DNA of 64,000 bases, taken from NCBI RefSeq assembly GCF_000021945.1, contig NC_011831.1, forward strand, positions 434,001-498,000, given 5' to 3'. Below the pieces are notes generated by a model. It searched no databases. It saw only the letters and a program-made list of their open reading frames with translations, and was not told the origin of the DNA. Of the stretch, positions 8,429 to 51,413 are shown piece by piece. This stretch comes from Chloroflexus aggregans DSM 9485. GTDB lineage: Bacteria; Chloroflexota; Chloroflexia; Chloroflexales; Chloroflexaceae. Position 1 is the first letter of the stretch; each line of letters opens with the position of its first letter. A program made the position numbers and the translations under genes.

Positions 8429-8494
8429 TGTTGTTCGATCCTCGCCGCAGCCGTGGTTCGTGATGTTCCGGCTGCGGCGCTGTTTTCTCGTGTG

Positions 8495-8503
8495 TGGTAT
8501 AGT
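8495..8503 (+). promoter_or_regulatory. extended -10 promoter of tetR (copy A)
   Basis: TGG-TATAGT (TGn extended -10) about 44 bases upstream of the tetR start. The same element is conserved in the duplicated copy at about 14,495, although the gene behind that copy is broken. No convincing -35 is visible. Confidence 0.45.
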
Positions 8504-8546
8504 AGCGGCTAACAACCGTATTGTTGGCCGGGTGACCGAACCGCTT

Positions 8547-9167
8547 ATGAGCACGACGCTCCGTGAACGCCGCCGCCAGATGCTACGCGACGAGATCCTC
8601 GCCGCGACGCAGCAATTCATTGCCGAACGCGGGTTTGCCGCACTGGCAATGGATGAACTGGCAGCGCGGGTTGGCATCTCGAAACCCACCCTTTACAACC
8701 AATTTCCCACCCGCGAAGATTTGCTGGCCGCCATGATTGCGCGCCTGATCCGTGATCTGTTCGCAGCCGCCGCCGTGGGCGAGCCAACCGACCGCTCACC
8801 ACTCGAACAACTGTGTGATCTCTTGCGCGCCAGCATTGTCTTCCAGATCCAACATCACGCTGCGGCCTTTCAGCTTTGGCTACCGGAAGTGACCGAGTTG
8901 CTGGAGAAGCATCCGCATTCGCGCGATGAACTTTTACAGGCCCAAGCGCGGGTAATCCGCCTGGCCGAAGCGGCGATTGCCAACGGTGAAGTGGCTGCCG
9001 ATTTGCAACCGGTGGATGTGATCCGCGCCTTCTCGTCGTTGCTCTGTTTTCCGTTTGTGGGTGGGCGTAACTTGCCGCCAGCCGATGATCCAGAAGCGAC
9101 GGCAGATCTGGTGGTGCGTATCTTCCGGCAAGGCTTGCAATCACCGCGTGAACAGACGCAGAGCTAA
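8547..9167 (+). CDS. TetR/AcrR-family transcriptional regulator
   Basis: A 206-residue repressor. The N-terminal HTH is clear: RDEILAATQQFIAERGFAAL, then MDELAARVGISKPTLYNQFP as the recognition helix-turn-helix (residues about 12-60). The C-terminal ligand-binding half is helical. The ATG at 8547 is chosen because the family starts about 10 residues before the first helix; an in-frame GTG at 8532 is an alternative. It could control the RND pump upstream, but in the ancestral arrangement it lay 4 bases upstream of an FAD oxidoreductase gene (see 14548-15973), which is the better-supported target. This is the intact one of two copies. Confidence 0.9.
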   Translation: MSTTLRERRRQMLRDEILAATQQFIAERGFAALAMDELAARVGISKPTLYNQFPTREDLLAAMIARLIRDLFAAAAVGEPTDRSPLEQLCDLLRASIVFQIQHHAAAFQLWLPEVTELLEKHPHSRDELLQAQARVIRLAEAAIANGEVAADLQPVDVIRAFSSLLCFPFVGGRNLPPADDPEATADLVVRIFRQGLQSPREQTQS

Positions 9168-9171
9168 TTCG

Positions 9172-9396
9172 ATGAGACACGCTCACTTGCATCCGCACCA
9201 CTCAGTCGGCACGACGAACCGGAACCTGATTATCCGACCCTAACCGATACTATAGCCGTTGATGTCTGTGTGATCGGGTTGGGCGGATCGGGCTTGACCT
9301 GCATCCACGAGCTGCTTGAGCTTGGGGTGCGCGTCGCCGGGATCGATGCGACAACGGTTGGTGGTGAGGCTGCCGGCCAAAACGGTGGCTTCCTAA
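9172..9396 (+). pseudogene. 5' fragment of a duplicated FAD-dependent oxidoreductase gene
   Basis: Nearly identical to 14825-15050, the start of the intact oxidoreductase gene: the same ATG four bases after the tetR stop, and the GLGGSG nucleotide-binding segment. A single base is missing near 9207, where the intact copy reads CAGTCTGGC, which shifts the frame. The sequence stops matching after codon ~74 and is fused directly to a permease fragment. It cannot encode a functional enzyme. Confidence 0.85.
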
Positions 9397-9552
9397 CACG
9401 TTGATCGCGTGCGTCGGTGCCATCGTGGGCCGTTCAGTCATCGCCGGCGTCAGCATCGGCTTGATTTTTCTCGTATGTGATGTGGGTGCCGGCTCGCTTC
9501 CTACAATTGGCGCCATCGATCCGTTTATTTTATTTTTTATTCGCTGCAACTC
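9397..9552 (+). pseudogene. internal fragment of a duplicated ABC permease gene
   Basis: Matches 17594-17735 inside the intact ABC permease gene (ACGTTGATTGCGTGCGTCGG onward, with scattered substitutions such as CTCGTATGTGATGTG against CTCGTGTTTGATGTG). It is joined to the oxidoreductase fragment at about 9397, so a deletion of about 2.5 kb in one copy of a tetR-oxidoreductase-ABC-permease segment explains both remnants. After about 9530 a T-rich insertion interrupts the match and homology fades before the stop of the CHAT-TPR gene. Confidence 0.8.
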
Positions 9553-9579: not shown

Positions 9580-12500
9580 CTATGCCGCACCCAACTGTTT
9601 CAAAAGATTACGCAGATTCGCACGCACAAGCTGCGTGTTTGGGTGGTTCACTCCCAACCTTTGCTCCATAATCCGCAGCGCCCGCTCGAACAATGGGCGG
9701 GCGGCCGCGTAGTCGCCTTGGGATGCCAGCAGCCCGGCCAGATTGTTCAGGCTGGCGGCCGTATCGGGGTGGTCGGGCCCTAGCGCCCGTTCATAGATTG
9801 CCAGCGCCCGCTCGAACAATGGGCGGGCGGCCGCGTCGTCGCCTTGGGATGCCAGCAGCAAGGCCAGATTGGTCAGGCTGGCGGCCGTATCGGGGTGGTC
9901 GGGCCCCAGCGCCCGTTCGCGGATTGCCAGCGCCCGCTCGTACAATGGGCGGGCGGCCGCGTCGTCGCCTTGGGATGCCAGCAGCAAGGCCAGATTGTTT
10001 AGGCTGGTGGCCGTATCGGGGTGGTCGGGCCCCAGCGCCCGTTCATAGATTGCCAGCGCCCGCTCGTACAATGGGCGGGCGGCCGCATAGTCGCCTTGGT
10101 GGTACAGCAGCCCGGCCAGATTGTGCAGGCTGGTGGCCGTATCGGGGTGGTCGGGCCCCAGCGCCCGTTCATAGATTGCCAGCGCCCGCTCGTACAATGG
10201 GCGGGCGGCCGCGTCGTCGCCTTGGTGGTACAGCAGCCCGGCCAGATTGTGCAGGCTGGCGGCCGTATCGGGGTGGTCGGGCCCCAGCGCCCGTTCGCGG
10301 ATTGCCAGCGCCCGCTCGTACAATGGGCGGGCGGCCGCGTAGTCGCCTTGGTGGTACAGCAGCCTGGCCAGATTGTGCAGGCTGGTGGCCGTCTGCGGGT
10401 GGTCGGGCCCCAGCGCCCGTTCATAGATTGCCAGCGCCCGCTCGTACAATGGGCGGGCGGCCGCGTAGTCGCCTTGGGACGCCAGCAGCCCGGCCAGATT
10501 GGTCAGGCTGGTGGCCGTCTGCGGGTGGTCGGGCCCCAGCGCCCGTTCGCGGATTGCCAGCGCCCGCTCGACCAGCGGGCGGGCGGCCGCGTAGTCGCCT
10601 TGGGACGCCAGCAGCCCGGCCAGATTGTTCAGGCTGGTGGCCGTCTGCGGGTGGTCGGGCCCCAGCGCCCGTTCATAGATTGCCAGCGCCCGCTCGTACA
10701 ATGGGCGGGCGGCCGCGTAGTCGCCTTGGTGGTACAGCAGCCTGGCCAGATTGTGCAGGCTGGTGGCCGTATCGGGGTGGTCGGGCCCCAGCGCCCGTTC
10801 GCGGATTGCCAGCGCCCGCTCGTACAATGGGCGGGCGGCCGCGTCGTCGCCTTGGGATTCCAGCAGCAAGGCCAGATTGTTTAGGCTGGTGGCCGTATCG
10901 GGGTGGTCGGGCCCCAGCGCCCGTTCGCTGATTGCCAGCGCCCGCTCGTACAATGGGCGGGCGGCCGCGTAGTCGCCTTGGGATGCCAGCAGCAAGGCCA
11001 GATTGTGCAGGCTGGTGGCCGTCTGCGGGTGGTCGGGCCCCAGCGCCCGTTCGCGGATTGCCAGCGCCCGCTCGTACAATGGGCGGGCGGCCGCGTAGTC
11101 GCCTTGCTGCTGCAACAGATACGCCAGATTGTCCAGGCTGGTGGCCGTATCGGGGTGGTCGGGCCCCAGCGCCCGTTCGCGGATTGCCAGCGCCCGCTCG
11201 TACAATGGGCGGGCGGCCGCGTAGTCGCCTTGGGATGCCAGCAGCAAGGCCAGATTGTGCAGGCTGGCGGCCGTATCGGGGTGGTCGGGCCCCAGCGCCC
11301 GTTCGCGGATTGCCAGCGCCCGCTCGTACAATGGGCGGGCGGCCGCGTAGTCGCCTTGGGATGCCAGCAGCAAGGCCAGATTGTTTAGGCTGGTGGCCGT
11401 CTGCGGGTGGTCGGGCCCCAGCGCCCGTTCGCTGATTGCCAGCGCCCGCTCGTACAATGGGCGGGCGGCCGCGTAGTCGCCTTGGTGGTACAGCAGCCCG
11501 GCCGTCACCATCAGCAGTTGCGCTGCGCTCCGTTCATCCAACGCGCCAGCGTGGTCGCACAACGCCAGTAGGTGCGGGCGGTACGGGGTTGCCGCCAGTG
11601 GTGCGCGCTCTATCTCACGCATATCCATCACCGCTACTGCGGCTGCGGCCGTTGCGGCGAGGGTAGCGCGATCGTCTGGATTGCACGCGCGGGCAAAGGC
11701 GGCCACCAGCCGGTGGATCGCGACGCCGTCCGCGCTGCGCTCGGCGAGCCCGACCTCGCCCAGCCGGCGCAGGACGGGATCGGCGGCGGCCGCAGCGGGG
11801 TCGGCCGGATCGCCGCCGGCCAGCGCCCCCACCAGTGGCAGCGGTACGGGTGCGGGGGCGAGCCACGCCAGCCGGTGGAGCACTGCCCGCGCTTGAGCGT
11901 CGCGCTGCGGGTCGAGCCGGTCGTAGCTCAGCTGGATAGCCGCGGCAACACCACGCGGATAGTGGGTAGGCAAGAGTGCTACCTTCGCCAGTTCATCGCT
12001 GAGCGACTCGTTGCTCAGCACGGTTTGGGCAAGCTGCTGGCGGTAGGCGGCCAGTGGCAGGTTCGGCAGGTCTTCGAGGTAGGCCCCGGCCAGCGCCAGT
12101 GCCAGCGGCAAGTCGCCGAGCTGCTCGCAGATCGCATCGGCCTCCGCTGCGGTGGCCGGATCGGCCAGCAAGCTATCCACCGCCGTGCGCTGCGCCTGCG
12201 CGCGCGGTTGGAGCAGCAACCGGCGGCTGTCGGCGCGGGACAACGGCGCGAGCGCGACATGCTCCACCCCCAGCGTCGCCCGCCAGTGGGCATTGCGGCT
12301 GGTAACCAGCACCCGCGCGCCGCCGACACCGGGCCGCCACTCCGCAAGGAGGCGCGGGTCTTCGAGGTTGTCAAAGATCAGCAGCCGGCGAACCGGCTCC
12401 TGCCACGCTCGCCGCACCGCCGCCACCTGATCCGCCAGCGCCAACCCCGCCCAGCCGGGCAGGTTCAGCCCATCGGGGCCGCCGCAGGCGGCCACTTGTG

Positions 12501-13797
12501 CGGCTATGCCGTCGGCATCAGCCATGTTCAGCCAGAAGACGCCGCCGGGGAAACGGTCGCGGGTATGATAGGCAACCATTACCGCCAGTTGGCTCTTGCC
12601 GATCCCAGCGGTGCCATGCACCACCGGCGTAATCACCGTTACCTCGGGGGAGTCGGCGCACAGGGTCGCGACCAATTGCTCGATCTCCTGCTCGCGCCCG
12701 GTAAAGAGCGGGTTGGGCTGGTAGGGCACCCGGAACGGCGCGGCGGTGGCCGGTTGCGTGACCGGGGGCCACAGGCGGCCATCGCTCAGCCGGTTGAGCA
12801 GGGTCAGCGCCCACCACGCGGAGTGGCGGGCCTGCTGGAGGGCCAGCCGGGCGTGGGTGAGGGCGCGGTCGAGCTGGCCGTCGCGGCTGAGTTCGGTGAA
12901 GAAGACCGGCAATGCAACGGCGGCGGCGGCTTGTGACAACGCGCCGTGGGCCGTCAGCACGGCCGGCACGCCGGCCTGCGCCAGTCGCGGGCCGAGCGCT
13001 GTCAGCGGTTGGTCATCGGTGAGGCCGTCACAACTGATCAGCACGATCAGACGCGGGCGGCGGTCAGGGGCAAGACTGCGGATGAGCGCGGCCAGATCGG
13101 CGCCGGCCTGTTTGGCAGCGTGCCCGTCCCCATGCACCAGCCACAGCCACGGTTGGTGATCCACCAGCGCGCCGTGAGCCACCAGATAGAGGATGTCGCA
13201 CCCTGCGCGCACCGCCGCGCTGAGCGCTTCCCACGTCGCGGTCACAACGTCGGTATCGGCAGCGATCTCGGCCAACGCCTGCCGGGCCCGCGCGGTTTCG
13301 GCGGCGGCATCGATCGGCGCAAGACCCCAACGCGCGGCGTCATGCGGAGCTGCAATCGCGATGACGGCGCGCAGCGCGCTGCGCGGCCGGGGGCGCAGCG
13401 GCGTAACGTCGTCTGCCGCGAGGTAGCGCGACAGCCAGACCTTTCCGAGTGCGAGCGGCTGGTTGTGCTCCGGGTCACACAGCGTCTCCCAGCGCAGGCC
13501 GTACAACTCCGCGGGCAACAGCACCCGCAGGCGCAGCGCGTCGGCCCGATTCACCGCCGCGGCGTACAATTCGCGGTAGGCGGCCAGCGCTGCGGCCTCG
13601 GCGAACAGCATCCTCCCCAAGGCTGCGCCATACGCAGCCGGGTCGAGCGCCACGGCGCGCAAGGCCACCGCATCGAACGGCCCGGCGACGAAGGGACCGC
13701 GGATGGTGTCGCTCTGGCCGTCGTGCAGGGTCAGCCGCAGGTGGTACCGGCCGTCAGCAAGAGGTGCAAGGTCGAGGGTGAGAGTCGTGACGTTCAT
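9580..13797 (-). CDS. CHAT protease - NB-ARC (STAND) - tetratricopeptide repeat protein
   Basis: A 1,405-residue signal-transduction NTPase. Domains in order: a CHAT (caspase-HetF-associated) domain, residues about 1-330, with the His of LYLVAHGAL (~206) and the Cys of VLISCDGL (~255) as the expected catalytic dyad; an NB-ARC ATPase, about 345-640, with Walker A GTAGIGKSQLA (~392-402) and Walker B LLIFDNLED; a helical/winged-helix linker; and a TPR array, 765-1395, of 15 kinesin-light-chain-type 42-residue units. Such STAND proteins act as ligand-gated switches: the repeats sense, the NTPase oligomerises and the protease is released. A target or ligand is not visible. The ATG at 13797 is chosen because it opens the CHAT domain; an ATG at 13854 sits at the predicted transcript start and could be used leaderless. 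It stands alone among pseudogenes. Very high GC and repeat identity mark it as accessory. Confidence 0.9.
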   Translation of the reverse strand: MNVTTLTLDLAPLADGRYHLRLTLHDGQSDTIRGPFVAGPFDAVALRAVALDPAAYGAALGRMLFAEAAALAAYRELYAAAVNRADALRLRVLLPAELYGLRWETLCDPEHNQPLALGKVWLSRYLAADDVTPLRPRPRSALRAVIAIAAPHDAARWGLAPIDAAAETARARQALAEIAADTDVVTATWEALSAAVRAGCDILYLVAHGALVDHQPWLWLVHGDGHAAKQAGADLAALIRSLAPDRRPRLIVLISCDGLTDDQPLTALGPRLAQAGVPAVLTAHGALSQAAAAVALPVFFTELSRDGQLDRALTHARLALQQARHSAWWALTLLNRLSDGRLWPPVTQPATAAPFRVPYQPNPLFTGREQEIEQLVATLCADSPEVTVITPVVHGTAGIGKSQLAVMVAYHTRDRFPGGVFWLNMADADGIAAQVAACGGPDGLNLPGWAGLALADQVAAVRRAWQEPVRRLLIFDNLEDPRLLAEWRPGVGGARVLVTSRNAHWRATLGVEHVALAPLSRADSRRLLLQPRAQAQRTAVDSLLADPATAAEADAICEQLGDLPLALALAGAYLEDLPNLPLAAYRQQLAQTVLSNESLSDELAKVALLPTHYPRGVAAAIQLSYDRLDPQRDAQARAVLHRLAWLAPAPVPLPLVGALAGGDPADPAAAAADPVLRRLGEVGLAERSADGVAIHRLVAAFARACNPDDRATLAATAAAAVAVMDMREIERAPLAATPYRPHLLALCDHAGALDERSAAQLLMVTAGLLYHQGDYAAARPLYERALAISERALGPDHPQTATSLNNLALLLASQGDYAAARPLYERALAIRERALGPDHPDTAASLHNLALLLASQGDYAAARPLYERALAIRERALGPDHPDTATSLDNLAYLLQQQGDYAAARPLYERALAIRERALGPDHPQTATSLHNLALLLASQGDYAAARPLYERALAISERALGPDHPDTATSLNNLALLLESQGDDAAARPLYERALAIRERALGPDHPDTATSLHNLARLLYHQGDYAAARPLYERALAIYERALGPDHPQTATSLNNLAGLLASQGDYAAARPLVERALAIRERALGPDHPQTATSLTNLAGLLASQGDYAAARPLYERALAIYERALGPDHPQTATSLHNLARLLYHQGDYAAARPLYERALAIRERALGPDHPDTAASLHNLAGLLYHQGDDAAARPLYERALAIYERALGPDHPDTATSLHNLAGLLYHQGDYAAARPLYERALAIYERALGPDHPDTATSLNNLALLLASQGDDAAARPLYERALAIRERALGPDHPDTAASLTNLALLLASQGDDAAARPLFERALAIYERALGPDHPDTAASLNNLAGLLASQGDYAAARPLFERALRIMEQRLGVNHPNTQLVRANLRNLLKQLGAA
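9640..11505 (-). repeat. 15 tandem 126-bp units encoding the TPR array
   Basis: A 126-bp period repeats almost perfectly. Each unit carries a GCGGCCGC octamer and encodes QGDYAAARPLYERALAI followed by ERALGPDHPDTATSLNNLA with few changes. Differences fall at about eight amino-acid positions per unit, and silent changes are rare. This pattern points to recent unit duplication or gene conversion. Confidence 0.92.
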
Positions 13798-13861
13798 GGC
13801 GCAATCGGTGATGCGATGATGCTGGATGAAGAGCATCGCAATGGGATGATGCATTATGGAT

Positions 13862-13890
13862 AGTATAGCAAACGGCGGGCAGCATCGCAA
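13862..13890 (-). promoter_or_regulatory. promoter of the CHAT-NB-ARC-TPR gene
   Basis: Reading the minus strand, TTGCGA (13890-13885), a 17-base spacer and TATACT (13867-13862). The predicted start of transcription, near 13855, falls on or next to an in-frame ATG at 13854, which is the basis for the alternative leaderless start. Confidence 0.5.
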
Positions 13891-13991
13891 GCGAGGGGAA
13901 CCGCAGCGGTATTTGACCGCTGAGGAGGCAGGGTTGTTACCGCGGCGGGCGCACAGCACACCCACAGTACGTTCCCGCTGAGGGGCAAACC

Positions 13992-14294
13992 AATGGCGTA
14001 GAGGCGTCGCTTCCGCGCCCAGTCATAGCCGGCGCAGACGAAGGTTCTGCCCGCTTGACCAAGCTGTTGCGCGAAGGGCCGGTCGGTGACGAGCCGGTTG
14101 ACCGCTGCGGCCATCGCTGCCGGCGCATCGGCCAGCAACAGATGCTCGCCATCGCGCAGGCCGGGAATCCCCTCGGCCCCCATGGTGGTACTCACCACCG
14201 GCGCGGCCATCGCCAGCGCTTCGAGCAGCTTTAACCGCGAACCGTCCCCAATGCGCATTGGAATAACGACCGCTTCGTAGCGCAGTTGGCTTCC
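13992..14294 (-). pseudogene. C-terminal fragment of a family-4 glycosyltransferase
   Basis: About 100 codons encode the GT4 C-terminal signature: VVIPMRIGDGSRLKLLEALA, then APVVSTTMGAEGIPGL and the tail RTFVCAGYDW. The family is normally about 350-420 residues; the N-terminal half and the proper end are missing, and the flanking frame is unrelated sequence. There is no start codon or ribosome-binding site. It is a remnant of a gene that once occupied this locus. Confidence 0.75.
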
Positions 14295-14494
14295 GAGACG
14301 TGCCCTTCCAATACCTTCACCACCTTCCTGCCACTGGTGCAACGCTAGCGTGCCGTGCGGTGTGGGCGGGTGAACGCGCGCCCGTCCCGCACCATTTGTC
14401 CCATCGGGTGCAGAGCGTGCGTTGGTTATCAGCCGCTGCCGGTAGGCCAATGACCGTGTGCAGTACCCGCGGCTGCAGCGCTGTTTTCGCGTGT

Positions 14495-14820
14495 GTGGTA
14501 TAGTAGCAGCTAACAACCGTATTGCTGGCCGGGTGACCGAACCGCTTATGAGCACAACGCTCCGTGGACGCCATCGCCACTGTTACGCGACGAGATCCTC
14601 GCTGCAACCCGGCAACTCATCGCCGAACGTGGCTTTGCCGCTCTCGCAATGGATGACCTCGCCGCGCGCGTCGGTATTTCGCAACCAACCCGCTACAATC
14701 AATTTCCGACCCGTGAAGACCTGCTGGCGGTCATGAATTGCGCGCCTGGTTCGTGATCTGTTTGCTGCCACTACCGTGGGCGAGCCAACCGACCCACCGT
14801 GTGAACAGACGCAGAGCTAA
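14495..14820 (+). pseudogene. tetR pseudogene (copy B) with its promoter
   Basis: Homologous to 8495-9167. The ATG at 14548 opens MSTTLRGR, but a one-base deletion near 14577 and a one-base insertion near 14737 break the frame, and about 360 bases are missing between GAGCCAACCGAC and GTGAACAGACGCAGAGC. Only 273 bp remain of 621. The junction lies in short CCG/ACC microhomology. The HTH part is still recognisable (MDDLAARVGISQPTRYNQF). The promoter-like TGGTATAGT is preserved and may still drive the oxidoreductase gene downstream. Confidence 0.88.
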
Positions 14821-14824
14821 TTCG

Positions 14825-15973
14825 ATGAGACACGCTCACTTGCATCCGCACCACTCAGTCTGGCACGACGAACCGGAACCTGATTATCCGACCCTAACCG
14901 ATTCTGTAGCCGTTGATGTCTGTGTGATCGGGTTGGGCGGATCGGGCTTGACCTGCATCCACGAGCTGCTTGAGCTTGGGGTGCGCGTGGCCGGGATCGA
15001 TGCGACAACGGTTGGTGGTGGGGCTGCCGGGCGCAACGGCGGTTTTTTGCTGGCCGGGCTAGCAGCGTTTTACCATGATGCGGTGACCGCCATCGGGCGC
15101 GAGCAGGCCGCAGCGATCTACCGGCTCACGATCGCTGAAATCGAGCGTATGGCCGCCGCAATGCCGGGTGTGGTGCGGCAGGTTGGTTCGTTACGCATCG
15201 CTGCTTCGGCAGAGGAAATCGCCGATTGCGCTGCGCAGTTGCAGGCGATGCGGGCAGATGATTTGCCGGTCGAGCCATACCGCGGCCCAGAAGGTGAGGG
15301 GTTGTTGCTGCCTACCGATGGCGCGTTTCAACCGCTCCAGCGCTGTCGCTTATTAGCCGAGCAAGCGCGACGTGGCGGCGCACTGCTCTTCACCCACACA
15401 CCGGCGCTGGCAATTGATGACACAATAGTACGTTGCCCACAAGGTCAGATCCACGCACGTCACGTCATTGTGGCCGTCGATGGCGGTCTCGAACAACTAC
15501 TCCCTGAGTTACGTGGCGTAGTCCGTACCACACGTCTGCAAATGTTGGCAACAGCGCCCGATCCCGAACGAACCATCCCGCGACCGGTCTACACGCGCTG
15601 GGGTTACGATTATTGGCAGCAATTGCCGGATGGACGCATCGCGCTCGGTGGCTGTCGTGACCGATTTGCGGCAGATGAATGGGAAGCACCGGCAGAACCT
15701 TCGGCGCCGGTGCAAGCGGCGCTCGAACAGATATTACAGGAGCGGATTGGCAGTCGGACGCCGATTGAACGGCGTTGGGCCGCCCGGGTCGCGTTTCACG
15801 TCGGGAGTGTCTTGCCGATAGCTCGTCAGGTGCATTCGCATGTATGGGCAATCGGCGCGTACAACGGCACCGGTAACGTGATCGGTGCGCTCTGCGGGCG
15901 GGCGGCGGCGCGGGCAGCGGTGCGCGGCGATGTGACGCTGATGCGGTTGTTGGATGGCACGGCAAGGGGATAG
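14825..15973 (+). CDS. FAD-dependent oxidoreductase (DAO family)
   Basis: A 382-residue amino-acid or amine oxidase-like flavoenzyme. The Rossmann FAD motif VCVIGLGGSGLTCIHELLE is at about residues 33-52, followed by GGGAAGRNGGFLLAG, the second FAD contact of the DadA/GlpD-like family. The C-terminus has the family's GAYNGTGNVIGALCGRAAA segment. The substrate cannot be predicted. The ATG at 14825 follows the tetR pseudogene stop by four bases, the same spacing as in the duplicated copy, so regulator and enzyme were one operon. With local tetR broken, control may come from the intact copy at 8547. Confidence 0.88.
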   Translation: MRHAHLHPHHSVWHDEPEPDYPTLTDSVAVDVCVIGLGGSGLTCIHELLELGVRVAGIDATTVGGGAAGRNGGFLLAGLAAFYHDAVTAIGREQAAAIYRLTIAEIERMAAAMPGVVRQVGSLRIAASAEEIADCAAQLQAMRADDLPVEPYRGPEGEGLLLPTDGAFQPLQRCRLLAEQARRGGALLFTHTPALAIDDTIVRCPQGQIHARHVIVAVDGGLEQLLPELRGVVRTTRLQMLATAPDPERTIPRPVYTRWGYDYWQQLPDGRIALGGCRDRFAADEWEAPAEPSAPVQAALEQILQERIGSRTPIERRWAARVAFHVGSVLPIARQVHSHVWAIGAYNGTGNVIGALCGRAAARAAVRGDVTLMRLLDGTARG

Positions 15974-17017: not shown

Positions 17018-17947
17018 ATGCACACGGAAATCTCCCCTTTGAGAATATTTGGTCAGATGTTGGCCGCCGAATGGCTGAAGATTGTCCGGCGTCCGATGGC
17101 GCATCTCTTGCTTGGCATCTTTTTGTTCCTTGCCACCTTACGGGAGACTCTATGGTTTCTGGTCGTTGCCTTGCAAGAGGGGTTATTTAGTGGTGGTGAA
17201 ATTACCTTTGGTCTGCTCAGTCCGACGGCCATCGAGCAGATCAAACTCCAACTGAGCTTACCCGGCGTGTTTGGGGCGATGTTCGGTGAAATCAACGGCA
17301 CCGGCGGGATACTTGCTGTCATTTTAGCGGCCGGTCTCTTTGGTAGTGATTTCAATTGGGGCACCCTGCGCGTTTTGCTTACCCGGATGCCCAATCGAAC
17401 GATCTATCTGCTGGCAAAAGTGACGGCCCTCCAACTGGCCTTACTTGCCGCCATGGCGATAACACTCCTCCTCGGTACGGGATTGGCGTTGATCTTCGGT
17501 GGGCTGCTCGGTTTGCCACAACGCCTTGGCGTAATCGATCTGTTGTTGGTGCCGGTCGGGATGCTACGCGCGCTCCTCGTCCTCTTACCCTACACGTTGA
17601 TTGCGTGCGTCGGCGCCATCGTGGGCCGTTCGGTCATCGCCGGCGTGAGCACCGGCTTGATTTTTCTCGTGTTTGATGTGAGCGCCGGCTCGCTTAATAC
17701 GATTAGCGCCATCGATCCGTTTATTCGCTCGTTGGTCAATCTGCTCTTGCAGCCAAACATTAATCGGCTTATCATCGAGAATGGTCGTATGTTCGGCCTC
17801 GACCAGAGCGTGTTGACTTCAGCGCTCGACACTGCGTTGCTTCCACCGCAGTGGCAAGCGCTAATCGTGATCATCGTCTACAGCATGATCTTCGGCTACA
17901 GCGCCTATCGTACACTGAACCGCCAAGACATCGGCGGGGCGAGCTGA
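17018..17947 (+). CDS. ABC-2 type transporter permease
   Basis: A 309-residue membrane subunit with about six hydrophobic segments. The N-terminus is cytoplasmic (MLAAEWLKIVRRPMAHLLLG, a typical ABC-2 permease opening); a long first loop contains GTGGILAVILAAGLFGSDFNWGT, and the TLRVLLTRMPNR amphipathic stretch follows. It is the partner of the ATPase immediately upstream. Part of this gene (17594-17735) exists as a second, broken copy at 9397-9552. It is convergent with the antiporter gene, whose stop is adjacent at 17948. Confidence 0.88.
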   Translation: MHTEISPLRIFGQMLAAEWLKIVRRPMAHLLLGIFLFLATLRETLWFLVVALQEGLFSGGEITFGLLSPTAIEQIKLQLSLPGVFGAMFGEINGTGGILAVILAAGLFGSDFNWGTLRVLLTRMPNRTIYLLAKVTALQLALLAAMAITLLLGTGLALIFGGLLGLPQRLGVIDLLLVPVGMLRALLVLLPYTLIACVGAIVGRSVIAGVSTGLIFLVFDVSAGSLNTISAIDPFIRSLVNLLLQPNINRLIIENGRMFGLDQSVLTSALDTALLPPQWQALIVIIVYSMIFGYSAYRTLNRQDIGGAS

Positions 17948-48730: not shown

Positions 48731-48836
48731 GCGGGACCCACGGCCTGTTGTAGGGACCCACGGCCTGTTGTAGGGACCCACGGCCTGTTGTAGGGACCCA
48801 CGGCCTGTTGTAGGGACCCACGGCCGTGGGTCCCTA
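48731..48836. repeat. 20-bp tandem repeat ending in a perfect palindrome
   Basis: TAGGGACCCACGGCCTGTTG occurs as three full copies (48751-48810) after a partial first copy (48731-48750), and the array ends in TAGGGACCCACGG followed by its exact complement (48811-48836, 26-bp palindrome). The final CTA is also the stop codon of the minus-strand MFS gene. It lies between convergent genes and probably serves as a terminator; copy number may vary between strains. Confidence 0.85.
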
Positions 48837-50812: not shown

Positions 50813-51413
50813 GTTAAACACCTGTGAAGTTTGTGATACATTCTACTAACCCATAGTAATGAATTGCACCAAAGGTGATCAAGGAAAAATTTTCCTGCCG
50901 GCGCACTCCAGCACCCTCCCGTGCGGTGCCTCCGCCAACATTGGCATAGAGAATATGGTCAGATGAATTAATGAAGTAATACCTGCATCACAGGGTGTGT
51001 GATTGCAAGTACAATACAATGGTTAAACACGTGTGATTTCTGTGATACCTTTCTATCCGTTCATTGTAATGAATTGCTCCAGCGGCGATCAAGGGAAAAA
51101 ATTTTCCTCCCGGCGCACTCCAGCACACTCCCGGACGGTGCCTCGACCAACGGTGGCATGAAGAACATGGTTGCAAGAATTAACCAAGGAATACCTGCAT
51201 TACCAAGTATGTAATTGTAAGTGAAATGCAATGATTGAACACTCGTGATTTCTGTGACGCTCTTCTATCCGTTCATTGCAATGAATTGCTCTAGGGACGA
51301 TCAAGGGAAAAATTTTCCTCCCGGCATACCCAAGCACCCTCCCGCGCGGTGCCTCCGCCAACGGCGGCATCGAGAATGTGGTTGGAGGAATACCGAAGCA
51401 ATACCCGCAACCG
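50813..51413. repeat. three tandem degenerate noncoding repeats of about 210 bp
   Basis: Copies begin at about 50813, 51022 and 51233 (periods 209 and 211; the internal anchor GATCAAGG is at 50877, 51087 and 51299). Each copy has in order: TTxAACACxxGTGA, TGAATTGC, GATCAAGG with a GGAAAAxTTTTCC palindrome, CGGCxxACxCxAGCAC, a GCACC...GGTGC pairing, and CTxxxCCAAC with a small hairpin. Identity between copies is roughly 75-80% by eye. Open frames are not conserved between copies, so they are noncoding. A promoter sits upstream on the plus strand. Function unknown; structured RNA or protein-binding array. Confidence 0.8.

Follow-up and report, generated by a model that had tools for sequence, protein, structure and literature searches.

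A CHAT-NB-ARC-TPR protein of Chloroflexus aggregans with repeat variation concentrated at predicted ligand-contact positions

In this study, we describe a protein of 1,405 residues from the filamentous hot-spring bacterium Chloroflexus aggregans. It carries, in this order, a CHAT caspase-like domain, an NB-ARC ATPase and an array of TPR units, with intact catalytic motifs and a homogenised TPR scaffold bearing diverse contact residues. The main finding, which goes beyond the first-pass annotation of this DNA, is that the variation among the repeats is concentrated on the predicted ligand-contact face of the array. With a probability of about 0.6, we read the protein as a self-contained bacterial NLR-type receptor in which a diversifying recognition array would release a predicted protease. 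In effect, it would be an Apaf-1-like switch with a built-in caspase-like protease.

Gene and domain organization

The gene occupies positions 9580..13797 of the minus strand of the window (the whole stretch of DNA that was analysed, 64,000 nucleotides in length) as an intact open frame, with ATG at 13797 as the start codon and the stop codon at 9582-9580. An alternative in-frame GTG start at 13965 would extend the product to 1,461 aa. The ORFs of up to 454 aa found on the plus strand across the gene and its repeats were discarded as antisense shadows of GC-rich coding sequence.

The CHAT, NB-ARC and TPR architecture proposed in the first-pass annotation for a product of this length was confirmed by Pfam profiles and by the reading of tandem repeats and ORFs. 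The CHAT caspase-like protease domain (residues 1-345; 12763..13797, minus strand) was assigned from Pfam PF12770, which matched residues 56-331 (E = 1e-17; 65 bits with respect to a cut-off of 24), and from model matches. Its predicted catalytic dyad, initially placed at around His206 and Cys255, corresponds exactly to His208 (codon 13174..13176) and Cys256 (codon 13030..13032, both on the minus strand). The NB-ARC ATPase, with its helical and winged-helix parts (residues 355-700; 11698..12735, minus strand), was assigned from Pfam PF00931, with a score of 24.0 bits for a cut-off of 23.5, and from a match to Apaf-1. Both its Walker A motif (GTAGIGKS, residues 395-402; 12592..12615, minus strand) and its Walker B motif are intact. 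In an alignment of ten homologues, of which the other nine were 38-85% identical to the C. aggregans protein, His208, Cys256, the P-loop glycines, Lys401 and Asp476 were invariant. The dyad was thus retained in every homologue aligned, its loss in orthologues having been named beforehand as an argument against the initial reading. The layout, consisting of an N-terminal effector (CHAT), NB-ARC and C-terminal superstructure-forming repeats, is the plan of STAND NTPases and bacterial NLRs.

An AlphaFold2 model covering residues 1-759 had a mean pLDDT of 82.9 and a pTM of 0.50, which leaves the placement of CHAT with respect to NB-ARC unsettled. Residues 1-344 of the model matched SAVED-CHAT (8tl0; Z 22.2, rmsd 2.0 Å over 192 residues), Csx29/TPR-CHAT (Z 20-22) and separase (Z 19-20). 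The best match of residues 350-754 was Apaf-1 (3sfz; Z 24.8), followed by plant NLRs. A sequence search against solved structures gave no match for the protein.

With respect to known families, two profile hits were not taken as grounds for an assignment. The best stretch of PADLOC PDC-S39 falls inside the TPR array, while the NCBIfam FxSxx-COOH TPR protein (NF040586) reached 577 bits but had its best stretch at residues 754-1068, which are nearly all TPR. No FxSxx peptide or radical SAM genes were apparent when the window ORFs between 5000 and 20000 were read, and PADLOC contained no model covering the CHAT-NB-ARC part.

Variation within the TPR array

The array is built of 15 TPR units, each exactly 42 aa long (residues 760-1389; 9631..11520, minus strand), in agreement with the 15 near-identical units initially noted. 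Units 2-14 are internal and unit 15 is a diverged end cap. At the DNA level, a tandem array with a 126-bp period and 92% matches extends over 9676-11485. With the TPR numbering anchored on L4, L7, A8, L11, A20, Y24 and A27, 26 of the 42 codons were invariant among the 13 internal units, 7 varied silently and 9 varied in amino acid, the latter being exclusively positions 2, 5, 9, 12, 13, 17, 24, 31 and 41. It must be noted that Magliery and Regan found TPR positions 2, 5, 9, 12, 13, 33 and 34 to be the most variable and to lie exposed on the concave face, where ligands bind (PMC1261162). All five helix-A contact positions (2, 5, 9, 12 and 13) were variable in the C. aggregans array (hypergeometric p = 0.0026) and also in that of C. 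islandicus (p = 0.0049), the three-dimensional location of the variable residues being taken from the TPR numbering and not from a solved structure.

At these five positions, pN was 0.447 among the 13 units and 0.444 in a 9-unit subset, with a pS of ~0.08, while pN outside eight variable positions was 0.003. The nonsynonymous difference rate was therefore about five times the synonymous one at the helix-A contact positions and near zero elsewhere; between recombining units, pN/pS is a descriptive measure and not a formal selection test, and our argument for selection draws on between-unit differences within a recombining array, and repeat proteins as a class have been reported to show more nonsynonymous change between repeats (PMC5120217).

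The internal units were all distinct in DNA (13 of 13). The four-gamete test revealed all four combinations in 47 of the 78 pairs of informative sites, and units farther apart in the array were no less similar to each other. Therefore, the internal units are mosaics generated by exchange and not recent copies. Unit identity was 91% within C. aggregans or within C. islandicus and 82.5% between the two, which reads as a signature of unit homogenisation. In addition, 15 polymorphic sites were common to both arrays, and in one case a whole block was shared, silent codons included (GCG TAT CTG TTG CAG CAG). The number of units was 15 in C. aggregans, 9 in C. islandicus, 3 in the relative G006 and 2 in a pseudogene of the relative G003, a comparison that is between species only; assembly may miscount units in near-identical arrays, and the draft assemblies of the relatives are less certain, a risk that is lessened, not removed, here since every internal unit is unique. 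Near-identical units, recombination, an excess of nonsynonymous change at contact sites and differences in unit number, which define the regime described for fungal receptors, were all found in this family.

Near-identical TPR arrays in other prokaryotes

The comparison was extended to 42-aa TPR arrays from NB-ARC-selected loci and from loci chosen by TPR_10 alone across Chloroflexota, a sample biased towards NB-ARC proteins. Among arrays with >72% between-unit identity (one entry being a partial duplicate of the C. aggregans array), entropy peaked at positions 9, 31, 12, 2, 41, 13, 24 and 5 (permutation p = 5e-5, assuming independent arrays). With no array entered twice, 18 of 24 arrays had a higher pN than pS at the five helix-A positions (Wilcoxon 2e-4, median ratio 2.0), and in 23 of them pN at the remaining positions did not exceed pS. 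The highest contact pN/pS ratio of the 24 arrays, 5.4, was that of the C. aggregans CHAT array. Nearly all the sampled arrays were located on NB-ARC proteins, with N-termini that include CHAT, TIR and caspase-like domains, and their hosts include Chloroflexota, Ktedonobacteria, Methanosarcinales archaea, actinomycetes and a planctomycete. The contact-position excess is not universal, since in a caspase-like - NB-ARC - TPR protein of 1,639 aa with 19 near-identical units (G003, L078:5378-10294, minus strand) the variation did not peak at helix-A positions 2, 5, 9, 12 and 13 (ratio 0.6).

This recurrence across phyla suggests that prokaryotes have a general mechanism, open to testing, for diversifying sensors without a diversity-generating retroelement. 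More tentatively, and at somewhat less than even odds, prokaryotes of several phyla may diversify their NB-ARC TPR sensors in an antibody-like manner, by recombination and without a reverse transcriptase. Contact blocks would be swapped between units and, by gene transfer, between species, while the scaffold would be kept uniform, and the C. aggregans CHAT receptor would be among the most extreme cases. If the reading of the C. aggregans protein as an NLR-type receptor is right, it would constitute a bacterial counterpart of the fast-diversifying immune receptors of fungi, in which a single chain combines receptor, switch and a caspase-like executioner. Nine residues per unit would then suffice to read the specificity of the sensor, and this in thermophiles that can be cultured, giving a direct route to what such receptors recognise and to their rate of change.

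Genomic locus and origin

The gene remnants reported around the locus in the first-pass annotation were recognised in both flanks. The left flank copy (8469..9391, plus strand) contains an intact TetR gene and a 5' piece of an FAD oxidoreductase gene. The right flank copy (14470..15045, plus strand) contains a degenerate TetR gene with an internal deletion (14470-14794) followed by the start of the intact oxidoreductase gene. The duplicated 5' piece of the latter comprises the first 250 bp of its region, 9142-9391 being 96% identical to 14795-15045. An ABC permease scrap (9396..9529, plus strand; 90% to 17592-17725) and a glycosyltransferase 3' remnant (14012..14273, minus strand) were also identified, the remnant having 90% identity with the C. 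islandicus-type gene and 77% with the orthologue of the C. aggregans genome itself. In C. islandicus, this glycosyltransferase gene lies directly upstream of the CHAT orthologue.

The C. islandicus orthologue (G007, L081) is 84% identical in amino acids and lies on the argC side. The gene also adjoins argC in G006 and in G003, where the copy is broken. In C. aggregans, argC is located 100 kb from the CHAT gene and has no such gene beside it. The same place in all relatives, with conserved neighbours and no repeat variation, had been named as evidence against a conflict sensor; the position was found to differ and the repeats to vary. At the DNA level, identity was 86% for the CHAT gene vs 72-82% for neighbouring genes. 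The G+C content of the CHAT-NB-ARC part (71% vs 58% for the window) agrees weakly with import, the C. islandicus copy being equally GC-rich. In attention to the identities of the glycosyltransferase remnant and of the CHAT gene, the simplest account is an apparent import of a glycosyltransferase-CHAT segment, with a C. islandicus-like lineage as the donor and integration by recombination that duplicated the flank.

The neighbours of the CHAT gene in the window encode an RND pump, TetR, an oxidoreductase and an ABC transporter. In the nine loci compared, no neighbour was common to homologous loci beyond the syntenic argC-side genes, consistent with the initial statement that the gene has no partner. 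In the relative G004, a different NB-ARC gene (L077:2019-4469) adjoins argC, which suggests that NB-ARC receptors recurrently occupy the argC side.

Some further features were observed in the relatives and in the window. In C. islandicus, ORF reading pointed to a nucleotidyltransferase and truncated HEPN-like toxin-antitoxin remnant (L043:12242-13026) in the interval that separates argC from the CHAT gene. A frame of the relative G002 (L024:1393-3579) encodes a CHAT domain (7e-38) fused to a SIR2-like domain (8e-17), similar to ThsA/SAVED-CHAT models, and most relatives had CHAT-only matches in frames of comparable length. In the window, a 20-bp unit is repeated 4.7 times with 100% identity at 48733-48825, and a 212-bp unit 2.6 times with 80% identity at 50852-51409.

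Proposed function and alternative explanations

The suggestion of a conflict sensor made in the first-pass annotation was partly sustained. A sensor under diversifying pressure is now backed by the site-specific data, and the repeats do vary; protease activity, cleavage of a substrate and an antiviral role are what we infer in addition. The ligand of the concave face of the TPR superhelix would be a peptide or protein that comes from an invader or from a foreign strain, and its binding would release autoinhibition. The NB-ARC part would then exchange its nucleotide and oligomerise, gathering the CHAT domains, which would cleave a cellular substrate and lead to growth stop or cell death. Unequal exchange and gene conversion between units would add, remove and reshuffle short coding blocks, with selection retaining variants at the contact positions. 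By such reshuffling, specificity could shift fast.

Kin or strain discrimination was also considered and is, in our opinion, unlikely. The array would read a polymorphic protein of other Chloroflexus filaments and a mismatch would lead to death, as with fungal het NLRs. The logic of the architecture and the evolution of the repeats are the same as in fungal allorecognition NLRs (PMC4986451, PMC10197012), the hosts are filamentous and mat-forming, providing a setting for cell-cell contact or DNA uptake in mats, and the gene is present or lost between species. However, arrays of this type also occur in archaea and in Chloroflexota whose lifestyle is unknown, a distribution that accords just as well with general defence.

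Activation by the CHAT domain of a gasdermin-like pore protein, with its gene at another place in the genome, is rather improbable. CHAT proteases do control some fungal gasdermins and fungal NLRs with CHAT proteases exist (PMC10197012), but no small conserved neighbour that could be a gasdermin candidate was present at the CHAT locus or at related loci (nine loci). The least probable explanation is an ordinary signalling adaptor with neutral turnover of its repeats, in which near-identity would stem from a recent tandem expansion and the variable positions would simply lack constraint: relaxed or positive selection after duplication has been reported as a general feature of repeat proteins (PMC5120217), constraint within the TPR fold is weakest at the contact positions (PMC1261162) and pN was not above pS in 6 of the 24 arrays, but relaxed constraint predicts a pN near pS and not five times pS, all the units are unique mosaics of few variants instead of recent copies, and variants are common to the species as blocks together with their synonymous neighbours.

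Comparison with known systems

The NLR-type receptor proposed here can be compared with several described systems. In multicellular bacteria, AP-ATPase-TPR proteins that carry caspase or TIR effectors have been predicted to be conflict systems (PMC7159879, PMC8195603); in the open-access literature, no published report of contact-site diversification in bacterial TPR receptors was found. The CHAT fold and the predicted His/Cys dyad are common to the defence proteases Csx29 (TPR-CHAT, Craspase) and SAVED-CHAT (PCaspase). In contrast to these, the C. aggregans protein appears to have NB-ARC in the regulatory place, with no gRAMP/Cas7-11 (the type III-E CRISPR partner of Csx29 in Craspase) among the neighbours of the locus and no SAVED domain, since domain profiles revealed only CHAT, NB-ARC and TPR. 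With the Apaf-1 / CED-4 apoptosome it has in common the NB-ARC fold and a predicted caspase-type output, whereas its protease is in the same chain and its sensor is made of TPR instead of WD40.

Retroelements diversify some bacterial conflict sensors, and the DGR-diversified NLR/CHAT sensors of multicellular bacteria are likewise of conflict type, some of them with CHAT, and have a hypervariable C-terminal sensor (PMC10907252). In those sensors a reverse transcriptase acts on C-type lectin domains, whereas here exchange occurs between TPR units. Bacterial near-identical WD40 arrays also carry diverse interaction hotspots, although on a beta-propeller WD40 and not on a TPR scaffold (PMC5587647). 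Finally, fungal NB-ARC/TPR receptors present near-identical units, polymorphism in unit number and selected concave sites (PMC4986451). Fungal NLRs with NB-ARC/TPR and with CHAT (e.g. Podospora Pa_2_10340; the HNWD family for WD40) follow the same order of effector, NB-ARC/NACHT and near-identical repeats, and likewise show variable or positively selected sites on the concave face and polymorphism in repeat number, which here was seen between species only. The C. aggregans protein differs from them in being bacterial and in having a CHAT effector with no gasdermin candidate among small conserved neighbours, the fungal TPR example having a sesB-like effector.
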